Of a stretch of DNA of 64,000 nucleotides, positions 11,221 to 24,614 are shown one piece after another. Numbering within the stretch: position 1 is the first letter of the stretch; the number at the start of each line of letters is the position of its first letter. The DNA comes from Cyanobium sp. ATX 6A2. GTDB taxonomy: Bacteria; Cyanobacteriota; Cyanobacteriia; PCC-6307; Cyanobiaceae. The translations under genes and the position numbers were made by a program. Under the pieces are notes generated by a model. It was given only the letters and a program-made list of their open reading frames with translations. It was not told the DNA's origin and ran no database searches. The stretch covers positions 1 through 64,000 of the forward strand of contig NZ_JAGQCU010000016.1 of NCBI RefSeq assembly GCF_024346355.1, read 5' to 3'.

Positions 11221-12570
11221 ATGCTCGCCGTTGCCGTGCTGGCCGCCGGAAAGGGCACCCGCATGAAGAGCGACCTGCCCAAGGTGCTCCAGCCCCTGGC
11301 CGGAGCCACCCTGGTGGAGCGGGTGCTCACCAGCTGCGAGCGACTCAGCCCGCAGCGGCGGCTGCTGATCGTGGGCCACCAGTCCGAGCGGGTGGAGCAG
11401 TCGCTGGCCCGGCACGAGGGTCTGGAGTTCGTGCTGCAGCAGCCCCAGAACGGCACCGGCCATGCCGTGCAGCAACTGCTCGAGCCCCTGGCCGGCTTCA
11501 GCGGCGAGCTGCTGGTGCTCAACGGAGATGTGCCGCTGCTGAGGCCCGAAACCCTCGAGCAGCTGCTGGAGACCCACCGCGCCAATGGCGCCGCGGTGAC
11601 CCTGCTCAGCGCCCGGCTGGCCGATCCCAGCGGTTACGGCCGCGTGCTGGCGGCCGAGGACGGCCGGGTGCAGCAGATCGTGGAGCACCGCGACTGCAGT
11701 GAGGCAGAACGGCAGATCAACCGGATCAACGCCGGCATTTACTGCTTCAACTGGGAAAAGCTGGCGGCGGTGCTGCCCCGGCTGCGCAGCGACAACGACC
11801 AGGGCGAGCTCTACCTCACCGACACGGTGGCCCTGCTCAGCCCGGCCATGCACCTGGAGGTGGCCGATGCCGACGAGATCAACGGCATCAACGACCGCAT
11901 CCAGCTGGCCCAGTGCGAGGCGGTGCTGCAGCAGCGGCTGCGGGAGCACTGGATGCGCGAGGGGGTGACCTTTACCGATCCGGCCAGCTGCACTCTCAGC
12001 GACGGCACCCGCTTCGGCCGCGACGTGGTGGTAGAGCCCCAGTGCCACTTCCGCGGCAACACCACCATCGGCCCGGGCTGCCGCGTCGGCCCGGGCTGCC
12101 TGATCGAGGACAGCCAGGTGGGCGAGGGCAGCCAGATCCTCCATGCGGTGCTGCGCGAGGCCGGCGTGGGCCCGGGTTGCACGGTGGGCCCCTTCACCCA
12201 GCTGCGACCCGGGGCCCTGCTGGCGGCGGGCTGTCATGTGGGCAACTTCGTGGAGGTGAAGAACAGCACCCTGGCCGAAGGGGTGAAGGTGAACCACCTC
12301 AGCTACATCGGCGATGCCGATCTCGGTGCCGGAGTCAATGTGGGCGCCGGCACGATCACCGCCAACTACGACGGGGTGCGCAAGCACCGCACCGTGATCG
12401 GAGCCGGCAGCAAGACCGGCGCCAACTCGGTGCTGGTGGCACCGATCACGCTCGGTGCCAACGTGACCGTGGGCGCCGGCTCCACCCTCACCCGGGACGT
12501 GCCCAGCGGCGCCCTGGCCCTGGGCCGCGCCCGCCAGTTGGTGAAGGAGGACTGGACCGGACCGCGCTAG
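11221..12570 (+). CDS. glmU: Bifunctional UDP-GlcNAc pyrophosphorylase / GlcN-1-P acetyltransferase
   Basis: Makes UDP-N-acetylglucosamine for peptidoglycan and lipopolysaccharide in two steps. The 449-aa protein has an N-terminal nucleotidyltransferase domain (LAAGKGTRM at residues 7-15, [17 protein letters not shown]) and a C-terminal left-handed beta-helix made of hexapeptide repeats (from about residue 245), with the catalytic-His motif VNHLSYIGD and the NYDGVRKH loop. An open frame continues about 300 bases upstream inside the previous gene, but the ATG at 11221 begins directly with the conserved fold and matches the family length. It ends the aroA-mnmD-glmU run; the following stretch is gene-poor. 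Confidence 0.96.
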
Positions 12571-12909
12571 CGCATCTGAGTACATGGGGCTCTAGCTGCT
12601 CTGTAGCTGGCATCGGCGCTGGCGCACGCAAAACGATGCCGGTGACGATGAAGGTTCTCGGCACCCGAATGAGCCCTGCGTCAATAAAGGATTGAGAGCG
12701 GTGCACGGCAAACCTGATGGCCACATTGGTGAGGGGGGCGTTCTGGCGGTCCTGGCAGTAGCGCGATGAGAGATGGTGGGCCGGGGCACCGCTTGTCCCC
12801 GTGCTCCGATCTGGTGCAAGTCTGATTTGGCGTCTCCGATCTGGCGTCGATGAATCATCCTGACTCCGTTCAGTTCAGGAGGTGGGCGGCCAACCCGGCG
12901 AGCCAAGAA
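12571..12909. other. Gene-free stretch between glmU and the AT-rich island
   Basis: I see no gene that can be supported here. Short open frames exist on the minus strand (one begins at 12906) but show no family feature. Two exact copies of the 11-mer CTCCGATCTGG lie at 12804-12814 and 12834-12844, 30 bases apart, with a degenerate third copy between them. The stretch may be the remnant of a decayed gene or the left edge of an insertion; composition falls from GC-rich to AT-rich across it. No transposase fragment or target-site duplication could be recognised. Confidence 0.4.
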
Positions 12910-12964
12910 TTTACAAAACTGTGGCGCTTGCTACATTCCTGTAGTACGCTAGTGCGAATTCACT
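12910..12964 (+). promoter_or_regulatory. Candidate promoter with two palindromes
   Basis: TTTACA at 12910-12915 and TACATT at 12932-12937, 16 bases apart, resemble -35 and -10 boxes and lie about 60 bases before the start of the membrane-anchored unknown gene. The -10 box sits inside an inverted repeat (CTACA, loop TTCC, TGTAG; 12931-12944), and a second one follows (AGTG at 12951-12954 with CACT at 12961-12964 around CGAATT). Either could be an operator. This is pattern reading only; no transcription start is known. Confidence 0.35.
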
Positions 12965-12993
12965 GATACCATTATGTTGTTGCTTCCCTATGA

Positions 12994-13611
12994 ATGGCGG
13001 ACGACGACCCAACTGGAGGGATTGGATCAAAGTATTTTGCATTAGCTGCAGTGGCAGTAACTGCCTTGTTCCTCGGTTTTTTATGGGGCAATCAAAGCAA
13101 GACGGGCAAGCTTACAATAGGTGACAGCGGCGTTCACGTTGAGATATCAGACCGCGAGCGAATCGAGTCAGTCATAGATAAGCTGCTTAATGAGAATACG
13201 ACCAGTCCCTACGAACGACAAGCGCTGATTACACATATGATAAGTGTCATTCGAAAGCACGCCCATGAATCAGATATAGGGCAGGAGATAGTTGAAGCCG
13301 CGAATAAAAGCGAAGGCCCATTTTATTGGGAGTACAGAGATGTAGATGTTCGCTACGATCCGACAATTTCGGCTCCAATTTTCTATGTATGCAAAGAGGA
13401 TACAAGCCTGCAGGGGGTTATCAGTGTGCAGGTATTAGACGGTAACAATGGATTCATGGACGTCGGCAAAGAGCACCAGGCTATTCCGCACAAGCAATGT
13501 GGAACAGATCAAAGCGTTGTCTTTACGGGCTACAAAGAGTTGGTTGAAGCCGCAGAGGCACCTGGTCGACTTGCAAAAGCCAGAAAAGTCGTTACCTTCC
13601 CAAGAAGGTAA
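12994..13611 (+). CDS. Unknown membrane-anchored protein of the AT-rich island
   Basis: Not recognised. The 205-aa product has a short cytoplasmic N-terminus (MADDDPTGG), one transmembrane segment at about residues 14-30 (YFALAAVAVTALFLGFLWG), and a soluble part of about 170 residues probably outside the membrane. That part contains a helical region (VIDKLLNENTT, ALITHMISVIRKHAHES) and a beta-rich region with two cysteines (VCKED, KQCGTD) that could form a disulfide. The DNA is far less GC-rich than the flanking genes (27 G/C of 60 at 13141-13200), which points to recent acquisition. The second gene of the pair, a small secreted protein, follows 22 bases downstream. No ribosome-binding site is obvious before the ATG. 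Confidence 0.7.
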   Translation: MADDDPTGGIGSKYFALAAVAVTALFLGFLWGNQSKTGKLTIGDSGVHVEISDRERIESVIDKLLNENTTSPYERQALITHMISVIRKHAHESDIGQEIVEAANKSEGPFYWEYRDVDVRYDPTISAPIFYVCKEDTSLQGVISVQVLDGNNGFMDVGKEHQAIPHKQCGTDQSVVFTGYKELVEAAEAPGRLAKARKVVTFPRR

Positions 13612-13633
13612 ACGCGCCAAGAGGAGGGCGTCG

Positions 13634-13798
13634 ATGACGAGACTAAAGGCACTGCTGGCCGCTGTTGCGGTTGGTTTTATTGGAGTAATGGTTGCTTGGC
13701 CTCAGATCGCAGAGGCAGCCTGTACTTACAAAGGCCAGGAGTTCCCCGAAGGAACCGTTATTGAGGGAAGAGTCTGCAAGGGCGGCAAATGGCAGTAG
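13634..13798 (+). CDS. 54-aa secreted cysteine-pair peptide
   Basis: A tiny gene in the AT-rich island. An open frame extends farther upstream over the previous gene, but the ATG at 13634 is preceded by AGAGGAGGG at good spacing and opens a textbook Sec signal peptide: MTRLK, a hydrophobic core to about residue 22, and AEA before the predicted cut after residue 28. The mature part would be only 26 residues, beginning ACTYKGQEF and ending CKGGKWQ, with two cysteines that can pair. The spacing of Cys, Gly and the final Gly-Lys-Trp recalls short von Willebrand C-like or DUF1496-like modules, but this is a resemblance only. Function is unknown; it probably shares a transcript with the membrane-anchored protein. 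Confidence 0.7.
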   Translation: MTRLKALLAAVAVGFIGVMVAWPQIAEAACTYKGQEFPEGTVIEGRVCKGGKWQ

Positions 13799-13811
13799 CC
13801 CAGGCCTATCG

Positions 13812-15242
13812 CTAGGGACCGGCCAGCTGCGACCTGAACGCTTGCAGCAGCGGCAGCAGGCGCTCCAGCGCGACGCTGCGGCTGGCCTTGAGCAGCACCA
13901 CATCGCCGGACTCCAGCCAGTCCCGCAACGGCTCGGCCGCCTGCTCGGGGGTGGGCACCCGAGCAAGTCGCGGCAGCGCCGCCGCGGTCGCGGCCATGGC
14001 GTCGCCCTCGGCGCCGCCCACCACCAGCACCAGGCCATCGAGGCCGAGCTCCACGGCCCGCTCCGCCACCTGGCGGTGCAGCTCCACGCCACGCTCGCCG
14101 AGCTCCAGCATCGTGCCCAGCACGGCGTAGCGGCGGCCGCCCTGCTGGCGCGCCAGCAGCTCCAGGGAGGCCAGCATCGCCTCCGGTGAGGCGTTGTACG
14201 TCTCATCGAGGATCGTCACCCCGGCGAGCTCAAGGCGCCGGCTGCGGCCACCCGGCAGGTCCACGGCCAGGGGCTGCCAGCGAGCGGGCGGTAGGCCCAG
14301 CTCCTGGGCCACCGCCAGCGCGAGCATCAGGTTGCGGGCCTGGTGTCGGCCCTCCAGGGGCAGCGGCAGACACACCCCGGCGACCTCCAGGCAGCCGGCC
14401 GCCTCATCGAGCACACCCACCAGCTCAGCGTCGTCCTCCCCGGGATCGCCGCACAGGGCCACCCGCAGCACCCGCCCGCTCCACACCCGGGTCAGGCTGG
14501 CATCGAGCAGGGGATCGCCGGACGGAATCACCACCACGCCCCCGGGCGCCAGACCGGTGACGATCTCGCACTTGGCCGTGCCGATGGCCTCGCGGCTGCC
14601 GAGACGGCCGATGTGGGCGGTGCCGAGGTTGGTGATCACCGCCACATCGGGGCGGGCGCAGCGGCTCAGCCGCTCGATCTCACCCAGCCCGCGCATGCCC
14701 ATCTCCACCACCACGGCGCAGTGCCCGGCGCCGGCCCTGAGCAGGGTGAGGGGCACACCCACGTCGTTGTTCTCATTGCCGCTGGAGGCGAGCACCGGGC
14801 CGAGGGGAGCCAGGACGGCGCGGATCAGCTCCCGGGTGCTGGTCTTGCCGGCCGAGCCGGTCACCGCCACCACCGGCGCCGCGAGCCGCTCACGCCACAG
14901 CCGACCCAGGTCCTGATAGGCCTGCAGGGTGTCGTCCACCAGCCACAGGGCCGCGCCGGCCGCCGCCGCCGCTGCCCTGAGCTCCGCCAGGTCGGCGCCG
15001 CTCAGGCGGTCACGCTGGGCCACCAGGGCCCTACTGCCGGCGGCCAGGGCCTGCCGCAGAAAGCGGTGCCCGTCGAAGCGTTCCCCCACCAGCGCCAGGA
15101 ACACTCCACCAGCGCTGAGACGCCGGCTGTCGGTGCTCACCAGCAGGGGCTCAACGGCCAAGGGTGCCGCGGGGGTGAGGGGAGGTCCCCAGAGCTCATG
15201 CAACTGCTGGAGATCAAGCGACATCGGCGGCGCCCGCGGCAT
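13812..15242 (-). CDS. murF: UDP-MurNAc-tripeptide--D-Ala-D-Ala ligase
   Basis: The last cytoplasmic Mur ligase: adds D-Ala-D-Ala to UDP-MurNAc-tripeptide using ATP. The 476-aa protein has the N-terminal UDP-binding part (VSTDSRRLSAGGVFLAL), the P-loop VTGSAGKTSTREL, GNENNDVGVPLTLL, MGMRGLGEI and the C-terminal ILDETYNASPEAM motif typical of MurF. An alternative start six codons downstream (MSLDLQQL) is equally plausible. The start overlaps the 3' end of the unknown membrane protein upstream, so it is translated in a unit with it and probably glgA. Its stop faces the small secreted gene of the island with 13 bases between them. Confidence 0.94.
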   Translation of the reverse strand: MPRAPPMSLDLQQLHELWGPPLTPAAPLAVEPLLVSTDSRRLSAGGVFLALVGERFDGHRFLRQALAAGSRALVAQRDRLSGADLAELRAAAAAAGAALWLVDDTLQAYQDLGRLWRERLAAPVVAVTGSAGKTSTRELIRAVLAPLGPVLASSGNENNDVGVPLTLLRAGAGHCAVVVEMGMRGLGEIERLSRCARPDVAVITNLGTAHIGRLGSREAIGTAKCEIVTGLAPGGVVVIPSGDPLLDASLTRVWSGRVLRVALCGDPGEDDAELVGVLDEAAGCLEVAGVCLPLPLEGRHQARNLMLALAVAQELGLPPARWQPLAVDLPGGRSRRLELAGVTILDETYNASPEAMLASLELLARQQGGRRYAVLGTMLELGERGVELHRQVAERAVELGLDGLVLVVGGAEGDAMAATAAALPRLARVPTPEQAAEPLRDWLESGDVVLLKASRSVALERLLPLLQAFRSQLAGP

Positions 15243-21978: not shown

Positions 21979-23247
21979 TCAGGGAGCAGGCTCGGCAGGC
22001 ACCAGACCCAGCTTCACCAGGGTGCGATCAATCCCCGCCAGGGTCGACCAGTTGCCCTGATCCGGTGCCCAGGGTCTCTGCTCCAGCTCATCCGCCAGCC
22101 GACTCAGCCGCTCGGGCGTGCAGGGCACGGGGGCCTCGTAGTGAGCTGGCACCAACCAGCGGGTCTCGTCCAGCTCCGCCAGGGAGCGGATCCAGCTGAC
22201 CAGCGCCGCCCGGCAGCGCGGGAACACCAGCCGCTCCAGCACCGGCGCCACCTGCGGCCGCGGTGCATCCTCCGCCACCAGCTCCACAAAGGCCTGCTCC
22301 CAGTTGGGATGCCAGCGGAACGGATAGAGGCCGAAGTGGCTGCGGGGACGGCGCAGCCCTGGGGCGAAGGCGTGGCGCAACACCTCCCTCAAGCCGGCCA
22401 CGCTGAGGGGAGCCGGCTGCAGATAGGAGGCGAACAGCACCAGCCGCCACCAACCGCGGCGGCGCTGCTCGGGGGTGTCCTCCAGAGGCTGATCGCCCCG
22501 GTCGCGGGCATGGAACAGCAGGGGGGTGGGATCGGCGTTGAACACAGGCGGGGGATCGGTGCCGATGGCCACCAGGGCATCGGTGACCAGCAGGCTGCCG
22601 CTGGCCCGGTGCAGGCAGGCCACCTCCATGAAGGTGCCCAGGCCGAGGTTGAGCGGCCCCAGGGCCCGCCACAGCAATTCATCCCCGTGGGGAAGACCCT
22701 GCTCAAACAGCACGCGGGTGCGGGAGGCGGGAAAGCCGAGCCAGCTCTGGGGCAGGCGCAGGGGAAAACTCCACTGGCGGGGCGTCACCCAGAGCTCTGC
22801 CTGGGGGCAGGCCCGGGCCAGGGCCGGAGCCGGCAGCTTGTGCTCCAGGCCTGAGGCAGTGGGCAGCACGATCGTGCGCACCGGTCCGTAGGTGGCCTCC
22901 AGCTCCCTCAGGGCGGACAACAGCTCAGCGGTGGGGGGCAGGGGGGCATAGAGCATCAGCCCCTGACGCAGCCGCACCACCGTCATGCGGATCGGCACCG
23001 CCACATAGAACAGTCCCTGCAGCTGCTCGAAGCTCCAGAGCTGATTGGGGATCAGCTCGCGCACCAGGGTGCGGCGGCGGCCGTAGGGATAGAGAGGGAG
23101 CAGTGGCCACCACGGCCAGCGCTGGCGGGCCGGTTCGGAGTTGCTGGCGGACGCGGCGGTCAACGGTGCGAGCGGCACTGGGGCAGAAGGACGCTGAAGG
23201 CGGCAAAGCCCGGCGGGCCAGGGGATGAGGTGCAGTCTGAAGCCCAT
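21979..23247 (-). CDS. DUF4336 protein (degenerate metallo-beta-lactamase-like)
   Basis: A 422-aa protein of the DUF4336 family, common in cyanobacteria and plants and thought to have a beta-lactamase-like fold. Visible segments are NQLWSFEQLQGLFYVAVPIRMTV, an SALRELEATYGPVRTIVLPT stretch, TFMEVACLHRASGSLLVTDALV, and a C-terminal helical part with a PYRSHF-like SHFGLYPFRWHPNW. The histidine-rich HxHxDH zinc motif of true metallo-beta-lactamases is not visible, so catalysis is doubtful. The start was set at the ATG preceded by AGGTGGGG; a TTG nine codons upstream is possible but lies next to the psbA terminator. It is downstream of psbA on the same strand. Confidence 0.75.
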   Translation of the reverse strand: MGFRLHLIPWPAGLCRLQRPSAPVPLAPLTAASASNSEPARQRWPWWPLLPLYPYGRRRTLVRELIPNQLWSFEQLQGLFYVAVPIRMTVVRLRQGLMLYAPLPPTAELLSALRELEATYGPVRTIVLPTASGLEHKLPAPALARACPQAELWVTPRQWSFPLRLPQSWLGFPASRTRVLFEQGLPHGDELLWRALGPLNLGLGTFMEVACLHRASGSLLVTDALVAIGTDPPPVFNADPTPLLFHARDRGDQPLEDTPEQRRRGWWRLVLFASYLQPAPLSVAGLREVLRHAFAPGLRRPRSHFGLYPFRWHPNWEQAFVELVAEDAPRPQVAPVLERLVFPRCRAALVSWIRSLAELDETRWLVPAHYEAPVPCTPERLSRLADELEQRPWAPDQGNWSTLAGIDRTLVKLGLVPAEPAP

Positions 23248-23272
23248 GCCGCCCCACCTGGGACAGAGCAAC

Positions 23273-23297
23273 AAAAAGCCCCCTCCAAGGAGGGGGC
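23273..23297 (-). terminator. Rho-independent terminator of psbA
   Basis: Read on the minus strand: GCCCCCTCC, a two-base spacer TT, GGAGGGGGC and then TTTTT. The perfect 9-bp GC stem (the loop will open to four bases) with a T tract lies 28 bases after the psbA stop and ahead of the DUF4336 start, so it separates the highly transcribed psbA from the gene behind it. Confidence 0.9.
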
Positions 23298-23324
23298 CCG
23301 GTGGGAAGCGTGGCCGGCTGGGGA

Positions 23325-24401
23325 TCAGCCGAGGGCCGGGGCCATGAGGGCCACCGGAGTGGCTGCGCTGGTGGCCAGGTCGAGCGGGAAGTTATGGGCG
23401 TTGCGCTCGTGCATCACTTCCATACCCAGATTGGCGCGATTGATCACATCAGCCCAGGTGGGCACCACCTTGCCCTGGCCGTCGAGGATCGACTGGTTGA
23501 AGTTGAAGCCGTTGAGGTTGAAGGCCATCGTGCTCACCCCCAGGCTGGTGAACCAGATCCCCACCACCGGCCAGGCAGCCAGAAAGAAGTGGAGGCTGCG
23601 GCTGTTGTTGAAGCTGGCGTACTGGAAGATCAGGCGACCGAAGTACCCGTGGGCAGCGACGATGTTGTAGGTCTCTTCCTCTTGGCCAAACTTGTAGCCG
23701 TAGTTCTGGCTTTCGGTTTCGGTGGTCTCACGCACCAGGCTGCTGGTCACCAGCGAACCGTGCATGGCGGAGAAGAGGCTGCCGCCGAACACACCGGCCA
23801 CACCCAGCATGTGGAAAGGGTGCATCAGGATGTTGTGCTCAGCCTGGAACACCAGCATGAAGTTGAAGGTGCCGGAGATGCCCAGGGGCATGCCGTCGGA
23901 GAAGGAGCCCTGACCGAAGGGATAGACCAGGAACACGGCGAAGGCGGCGGAGAGCGGGGCGGAGTAGGCCACGCAGATCCAGGGGCGCATGCCGAGGCGG
24001 TAGGAGAGTTCCCACTGACGGCCCATGTAGCAGGAGATGCCGATCAGGAAGTGGAAGACCACCAGCTGATAGGGGCCGCCGTTGTAGAGCCACTCATCGA
24101 GGCTGGCGGCTTCCCAGATGGGATAGAAGTGCAGGCCGATGGCGTTGCTCGAAGGCACCACAGCACCGGAGATGATGTTGTTGCCGTAGAGCAGGGAGCC
24201 GGCCACAGGCTCACGGATGCCGTCGATGTCGACGGGGGGAGCGGCGATGAACGCCACAATGAAGCAGATGGTGGCGGCCAGCAGGCAGGGGATCATCAGC
24301 ACACCGAACCAACCCACATAGATGCGGTTGTTGGTGGAGGTGATCCAGGCGCAGAAGCTTTCCCAGCTTCCAGAGCGGCCGCTGCGTACAGCAGTGGTCA
24401 T
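23325..24401 (-). CDS. psbA: Photosystem II D1 protein, low-light (Gln-130) form
   Basis: Reaction-centre subunit of photosystem II that binds P680, pheophytin, QB and the manganese cluster. The 358-aa product begins [16 protein letters not shown]; relative to common D1 sequences one residue is missing near the N-terminus. [14 protein letters not shown] has Gln at the position equivalent to 130, the D1:1 type; high-light forms have Glu. The Mn ligands are all there in [13 protein letters not shown], and the C-terminal extension after DLA is the part removed by CtpA. The ATG at 24401 has GAGGA eight bases upstream. The frame runs on upstream but only through non-coding leader. Confidence 0.98.
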
Positions 24402-24614
24402 GAAGAAATCCTCAGAAATGACGATCAGCGAGAGGAGAAACTGAACGAAATAACGGAATGAGAACGGTGGAATCAGACCGGCTAGATCCCTACGGCTAGA
24501 TCTCTCGAGCGAAACCCTGAAAGGAACCGGCACGATGAAAGCCTCACCAACGCTACGGAAAGCGTCGCGCTTAGCGGGAAGCTGCAAAAAAAAGTTCCGA
24601 TGCTTTGCTCTTCT
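24402..24614 (-). promoter_or_regulatory. psbA upstream region
   Basis: The 213 bases before psbA contain no gene and must hold its promoter, though no clear -35/-10 pair can be picked. The ribosome-binding site is GAGGA (plus-strand cctca at 24410-24414). The 10-mer CGGCTAGATC occurs twice, at 24479-24488 and 24493-24502, 14 bases apart. A compound hairpin lies at 24551-24576 (outer 5-bp stem CGCTA/TAGCG around an inner AGCG/CGCT), next to a run of eight T on the minus strand (24586-24593). These may bind regulators or shape the transcript. Confidence 0.5.

Follow-up and report, generated by a model that had tools for sequence, protein, structure and literature searches.

Two small genes of unusual base composition separate glmU from murF in Cyanobium sp. 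ATX 6A2. This raises the question of how they came to lie between two genes of wall synthesis, and whether their products act together. We examined a window of 64,000 nucleotides, the whole stretch of DNA that was analysed. A preliminary description of this DNA had placed two open reading frames (ORFs), 22 bases apart, between two wall-synthesis genes; the coordinates were confirmed, as were glmU and murF (Table 1).

Table 1. Features at the glmU–murF junction, in coordinates of the window
Feature	Position	Strand	Remarks
glmU, left flank	11221..12570	+	NCBIfam NF010940, 3.9e-217
CGCTAG, left copy of the 6-bp duplication, includes the glmU stop TAG	12565..12570	.	identical to 13810-13815
Left part of the insert, without known gene	12571..12993	.	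335 bp at 61.5% GC, then 88 bp at 41% GC
Gene 1, 205 aa	12994..13611	+	one N-terminal transmembrane segment (TM, residues 14-32), C-terminal domain with Cys133 and Cys169
Gene 2, 54 aa	13634..13798	+	Sec-type signal peptide, then two-Cys mini-domain CTYKGQEFPEGTVIEGRVCKGGKWQ
CGCTAG, right copy of the duplication, includes the reverse-strand murF stop	13810..13815	.	identical to 12565-12570
murF, right flank, convergent	13812..15242	-	NCBIfam TIGR01143, 5.7e-106

The insert at the glmU–murF junction

Comparison with relatives delimited an insert of 1,239 bp between the convergent genes glmU and murF. The hexamer CGCTAG, which occurs only four times in the whole 64-kb window, stands at both ends of the insert, and in the closest relative (G001, locus L017) the stop codons of glmU and murF overlap in CGCTAAGG. 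The bounds of the insert were therefore set at 12571 and 13809. The simplest reading of these sequences is that the junction site would have been duplicated on insertion, with both stop codons kept. We surveyed the junction in 11 genomes of the same genus in which murF was found, sampled as one genome per species, and glmU adjoined murF in all of them. The junction was empty in all 11, and the gap between the ends of the coding matches was only 2–85 bp at these readable junctions. No transposase ORF was recognised within 12571–13809, and the ends carry the 6-bp direct repeat only, with no pair of terminal inverted repeats. The insert thus shows neither of the two marks of an insertion sequence or autonomous transposon, a transposase gene and terminal inverted repeats. 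It is clean-ended and phage genes are absent.

The preliminary description had pointed to an AT-rich island at 12880–13800. The underlying counts were reproduced exactly (27 G/C of 60 at 13141–13200 versus 43 of 60 at 12001–12060) and the AT-rich part stood, but the extent had to be revised, as the segment starts at 12571 and its first 335 bp have a GC content of 61.5%. The GC content of gene 1 was 47.4% and that of gene 2 53.3%, compared to a window mean of 70.3%. We used the 52 ORFs of the 64-kb window as the only reference for codon usage. GC3 was 0.46 in gene 1 and 0.53 in gene 2, versus 0.865 ± 0.053 (minimum 0.726) in the reference, and the codon adaptation index (CAI) was 0.22 and 0.24, respectively, versus a minimum of 0.43, such that both genes fall below the lowest of the 52 ORFs. 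The earlier suggestion that the genes were acquired is well supported by the empty junction in 11 of 11 congeners, the foreign composition, the 6-bp duplication and the mobile-element genes around the nearest related pair.

Proteins encoded by the two genes

Searches of Pfam, NCBIfam, PHROGs, PADLOC, PDB sequences and Rfam with gene 1 and gene 2 returned nothing usable. The sequence features are in line with the earlier view of two export-directed proteins of no assigned family. In gene 1, the TM segment is clear and is the only one, which bears out the claim of a membrane anchor; a helical linker probably connects it to the C-terminal domain. The external position claimed for this domain is less direct: we infer it from the C-terminal Cys pair, which gene 1 has in common with its relatives, whereas the charges flanking the TM segment do not favour a C-out topology. 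The AlphaFold2 (AF2) model of gene 1 (pLDDT 39.5) was not usable because homologues are lacking.

Gene 2 is preceded by GGAGG, a ribosome-binding-like sequence just 5' of its ATG, and its signal peptide has no canonical lipobox. The mature peptide contains two Cys only and thus one possible disulfide. It was modelled by AF2 as a small beta module, with a pLDDT of about 95 for residues 30–54. With this model, the better Foldseek matches were mostly VWF D'D3, mucin, collagen VWC and NEL, with fibronectin-I ranking lower; the probability was up to 0.99 at a best E of 0.39, which for a domain of this size falls short of significance. The closest VWF D'D3 rows had an rmsd of 0.6–0.8 Å over about 30 alignment columns, and the VIA Z of the fold matches was 2.0–2.6, not significant at such a domain size. 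In a PDB sequence-profile search mucin and VWF ranked first, at E values of only 0.1–0.2. As modelled, the mature peptide is likely to resemble VWF-E, VWC and fibronectin-I modules in shape. Furthermore, it has the same C-x3-G-x2-Y-x2-G ... C ... G-x-W pattern as the VWF E module, VWC subdomain 1 and fibronectin type I. VWC/VWF-E/FN1-like modules are defined by two or more conserved disulfides and contain several, whereas the gene 2 peptide is bacterial, free-standing and about 26 residues long, with one possible disulfide. This single possible disulfide argues against counting it among these modules; it looks like one of them and is not filed as a member.

Related gene pairs in other genomes

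A single-sequence scan of genome contigs found no relative, and an alignment-based scan found only a Cyanobium metagenome-assembled genome (MAG; Cyanobium sp. CZS48M, G046). Across relatives and the order, in two partly overlapping samples of 197 and 399 genomes, this was the only genome with a gene 1 homologue (4.8e-18). It carries a diverged pair in the same order and on the same strand, with the small-protein gene about 330 bp downstream of the gene 1 homologue. Identity to the window proteins was 28% for gene 1 and 43% over 28 residues for the small protein (E 3e-10). The GC content of this pair is 44%, versus 63% for its 20-kb stretch, and its surroundings include an IS5 transposase remnant, a gene for terminase GpA (1.8e-80) about 450 bp away, and an integrase-like fragment. 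An astacin-like metalloprotease gene (L011 795–1907) also lies near this pair, beyond the IS5 remnant.

A third pair was found in the distant cyanobacterium G502. The match to the gene 1 profile was weak (E 0.006) and covered the TM region only. What makes it convincing is the gene that follows after 38 bp, which encodes a signal peptide and the motif CFYDGKWYPSGYILGSYTCVSGVW as in gene 2. Beyond the G502 pair, a 1210-aa ORF on the opposite strand (L047 11454–15086) resembles an NB-ARC/WD40-type protein. Sequence comparison indicates that the pair is a genuine module. Such gene pairs are not described in the titles and abstracts of the literature that we searched.

A family of small proteins and their membrane partners

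A three-sequence profile of the small protein matched six further genomes (G707, G521, G622, G151, G552 and G532) with per-genome E values of 1e-7 to 2e-4. Weaker members were present in G656, in G587 and at a second locus of G622. A ten-member profile (alignment A6, without G151) recovered G151 at 6e-11. In total, 12 small-protein loci were found, rare and patchy across cyanobacteria. The small protein occurs in G151 and G502 and is absent from their sampled relatives; denser sampling for the small protein around these two genomes, and for the type-B partner around G622, gave no new members. In ten members C30, G34, G40, C48 and W53 are invariant, and Y37 and G51 nearly so. The family is defined by a signal peptide, the motif C-x3-G-x2-[YF]-x2-G-x(n)-C-x(2,4)-[GS]-x-W and, as neighbour, a membrane-anchored protein, which adjoins the small protein at 11 of the 12 loci; the twelfth (G656) lies at a contig end. 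Weak matches at L044–L046, L055, L057 and L058, where the motif is not present, were rejected.

The membrane partners are of three types. At six loci the partner is encoded upstream, as type A (window, G046, G502) or type B (G707, G622, G151), and all six have N-terminal hydrophobic segments and a C-terminal Cys pair 32–41 residues apart. The three type-B pairs are mutually homologous. BLAST of P0001 against the type-B partners was not significant. In hhalign, the C-domains of types A and B aligned at the first Cys (P=0.012, a score reached by 0 of 200 column shuffles), and the whole proteins gave P=0.063. A common descent of these C-domains is likely, on weak statistics. At the other five loci a type-C partner, a membrane-anchored pentapeptide-repeat protein, is encoded downstream. 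Cyanobacterial pentapeptide-repeat membrane proteins (PF00805) thus adjoin 5 of the 12 loci; they are not homologous to gene 1, and the gene order is reversed, with the small gene upstream. At these loci (L050, L053, L054, L059 and L076) the small-protein gene lies 87–362 bp upstream on the same strand as its partner, and the partners share the N-terminal domain QRHEIMxxYLxxMTxLL...TLNxxRQLDxERKGQLLKFLYE. An association of the small protein with pentapeptide-repeat proteins was not described in the titles and abstracts searched. The comparison of loci points to the small protein as the constant part of the module.

Proposed role and alternative explanations

Our proposal, which we regard as having an even chance of being correct, is an acquired two-protein surface module in which the exported mini-domain would bind its membrane partner at the outer domain. 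A mobile accessory module of small size would have entered the convergent glmU–murF junction and duplicated CGCTAG. The gene 1 product would be anchored in the inner membrane, with a disulfide-type C-terminal domain acting outside the cytoplasm. The gene 2 product would be a Sec-exported, one-disulfide beta mini-domain of VWF-E/VWC/fibronectin-I shape, and may dock on the partner's outer domain as a detachable subunit. We assign the binding role to the peptide because binding is the usual task of VWC-like modules. If so, bacteria would possess, as a protein on its own, an equivalent of a binding module that is known chiefly from extracellular proteins of animals. The pair might confer a niche- or strain-specific surface trait, either for sensing or for warding off phage or competitors, and a housekeeping wall function seems less favoured. 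The pair is tied to wall synthesis by its insertion point alone, and the glmU/murF neighbourhood is uninformative on function because the other pairs have different neighbours. Of the envelope or competition function proposed in the preliminary description, the former is plausible from the predicted localisation, while competition is without direct support. More tentatively, and doubtful in our judgement, the loci may represent a class-wide cyanobacterial family of mobile ligand–receptor-like modules, in which a conserved mini-domain shaped like animal VWC/FN1 is combined with swapped membrane partners (single-TM, multi-TM Cys-pair or pentapeptide-repeat) and serves as the outer, detachable subunit of a device for sensing or defence at the cell surface.

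Phage-like or satellite cargo is a live rival because of the neighbourhood of the G046 pair. Here, the genes would have served lysogenic conversion or superinfection exclusion and would have remained after a larger prophage or satellite element decayed. The G046 copy lies close to the terminase gene and near the integrase-like fragment, and the window insert has the 6-bp duplication without a mobility gene of its own. However, gene 1, its G046 homologue and the G046 small protein were unmatched in 50,697 phage records, gene 1 and the G046 pair proteins were unmatched in IMG/VR scans, and the window insert is clean-ended and without a phage gene, which makes this origin unlikely; plasmid searches found no relative of the pair either. 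We also consider it rather improbable that the 54-aa peptide is an exported bacteriocin-like toxin directed at neighbours, with the membrane protein as the producer's immunity. Sec-secreted bacteriocin/immunity pairs likewise combine a small secreted Cys peptide with a membrane protein in a patchy distribution, and the foreign composition would fit. Yet here the peptide is conserved class-wide beside partners of differing type, whereas a toxin with its cognate immunity protein should diverge fast, and this constancy beside exchangeable partners is why a classical toxin/immunity pair is disfavoured. The signal is of Sec type rather than a double-glycine leader, and no gene for an exporter or for maturation adjoins the pair, either in the window or at L002. 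The pair had no match at usable E to a recognised toxin, immunity or export family in Pfam, NCBIfam or PADLOC, and no bacteriocin-type match.

Two further explanations dispense with acquisition or with genes altogether. The composition of small orphan genes often drifts, so ancestral genes lost from the relatives, or genes that are AT-rich merely because they are small and fast-evolving, might look as these do. This is very improbable, given that all 11 congeners are empty, with stop codons nearly abutting or overlapping in the closest, that the duplicated CGCTAG marks an insertion rather than repeated loss, and that in the two samples of 197 and 399 genomes only G046 has a gene 1 homologue. 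That the ORFs arose by chance within a non-coding insert would agree with the lack of matches in database families, but is refuted by homologous pairs in the same order in other genera, and the signal peptide, the ribosome-binding-like site and protein conservation at 28–43% identity also speak against it; we attach next to no probability to it.

What were two orphan genes can now be treated as one testable module, with a motif that defines it, partners of three types and about a dozen examples whose loci are located. This makes it possible to search for and assay a class of very small exported proteins that are easily overlooked by annotation pipelines, and the glmU–murF junction, cleanly empty or occupied, lends itself to genetics.

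Left part of the insert and other low-GC stretches

The left part of the insert had no plasmid match, and its reverse ORFs had no Pfam match. The 88-bp stretch of low GC before gene 1 would hold the gene 1 promoter; one promoter-like site was seen (12910–12937), compared to 0.8 expected by chance. Matches to left-part DNA in G003, G007 and G009, of the same genus, were 32–38 bp long and chance-like, and were rejected as homologues. The short matches that were read (L031 and L033) fall inside unrelated genes. An 11-bp repeat, CTCCGATCTGG, occurs in two copies 30 bp apart (12804 and 12834) in the 335-bp orphan DNA at 12571–12905.

Elsewhere in the window the GC content dips in two stretches that hold native genes, which we named from their sequence as psbA-like (D1) and glgB-like. 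A DUF4336 gene adjoins the psbA-like gene both in the window (21979–24587) and in the distant genome G502 (L047 15148–17691), which is possibly conserved synteny. This stretch lies within some kilobases of the G502 pair, probably by coincidence.
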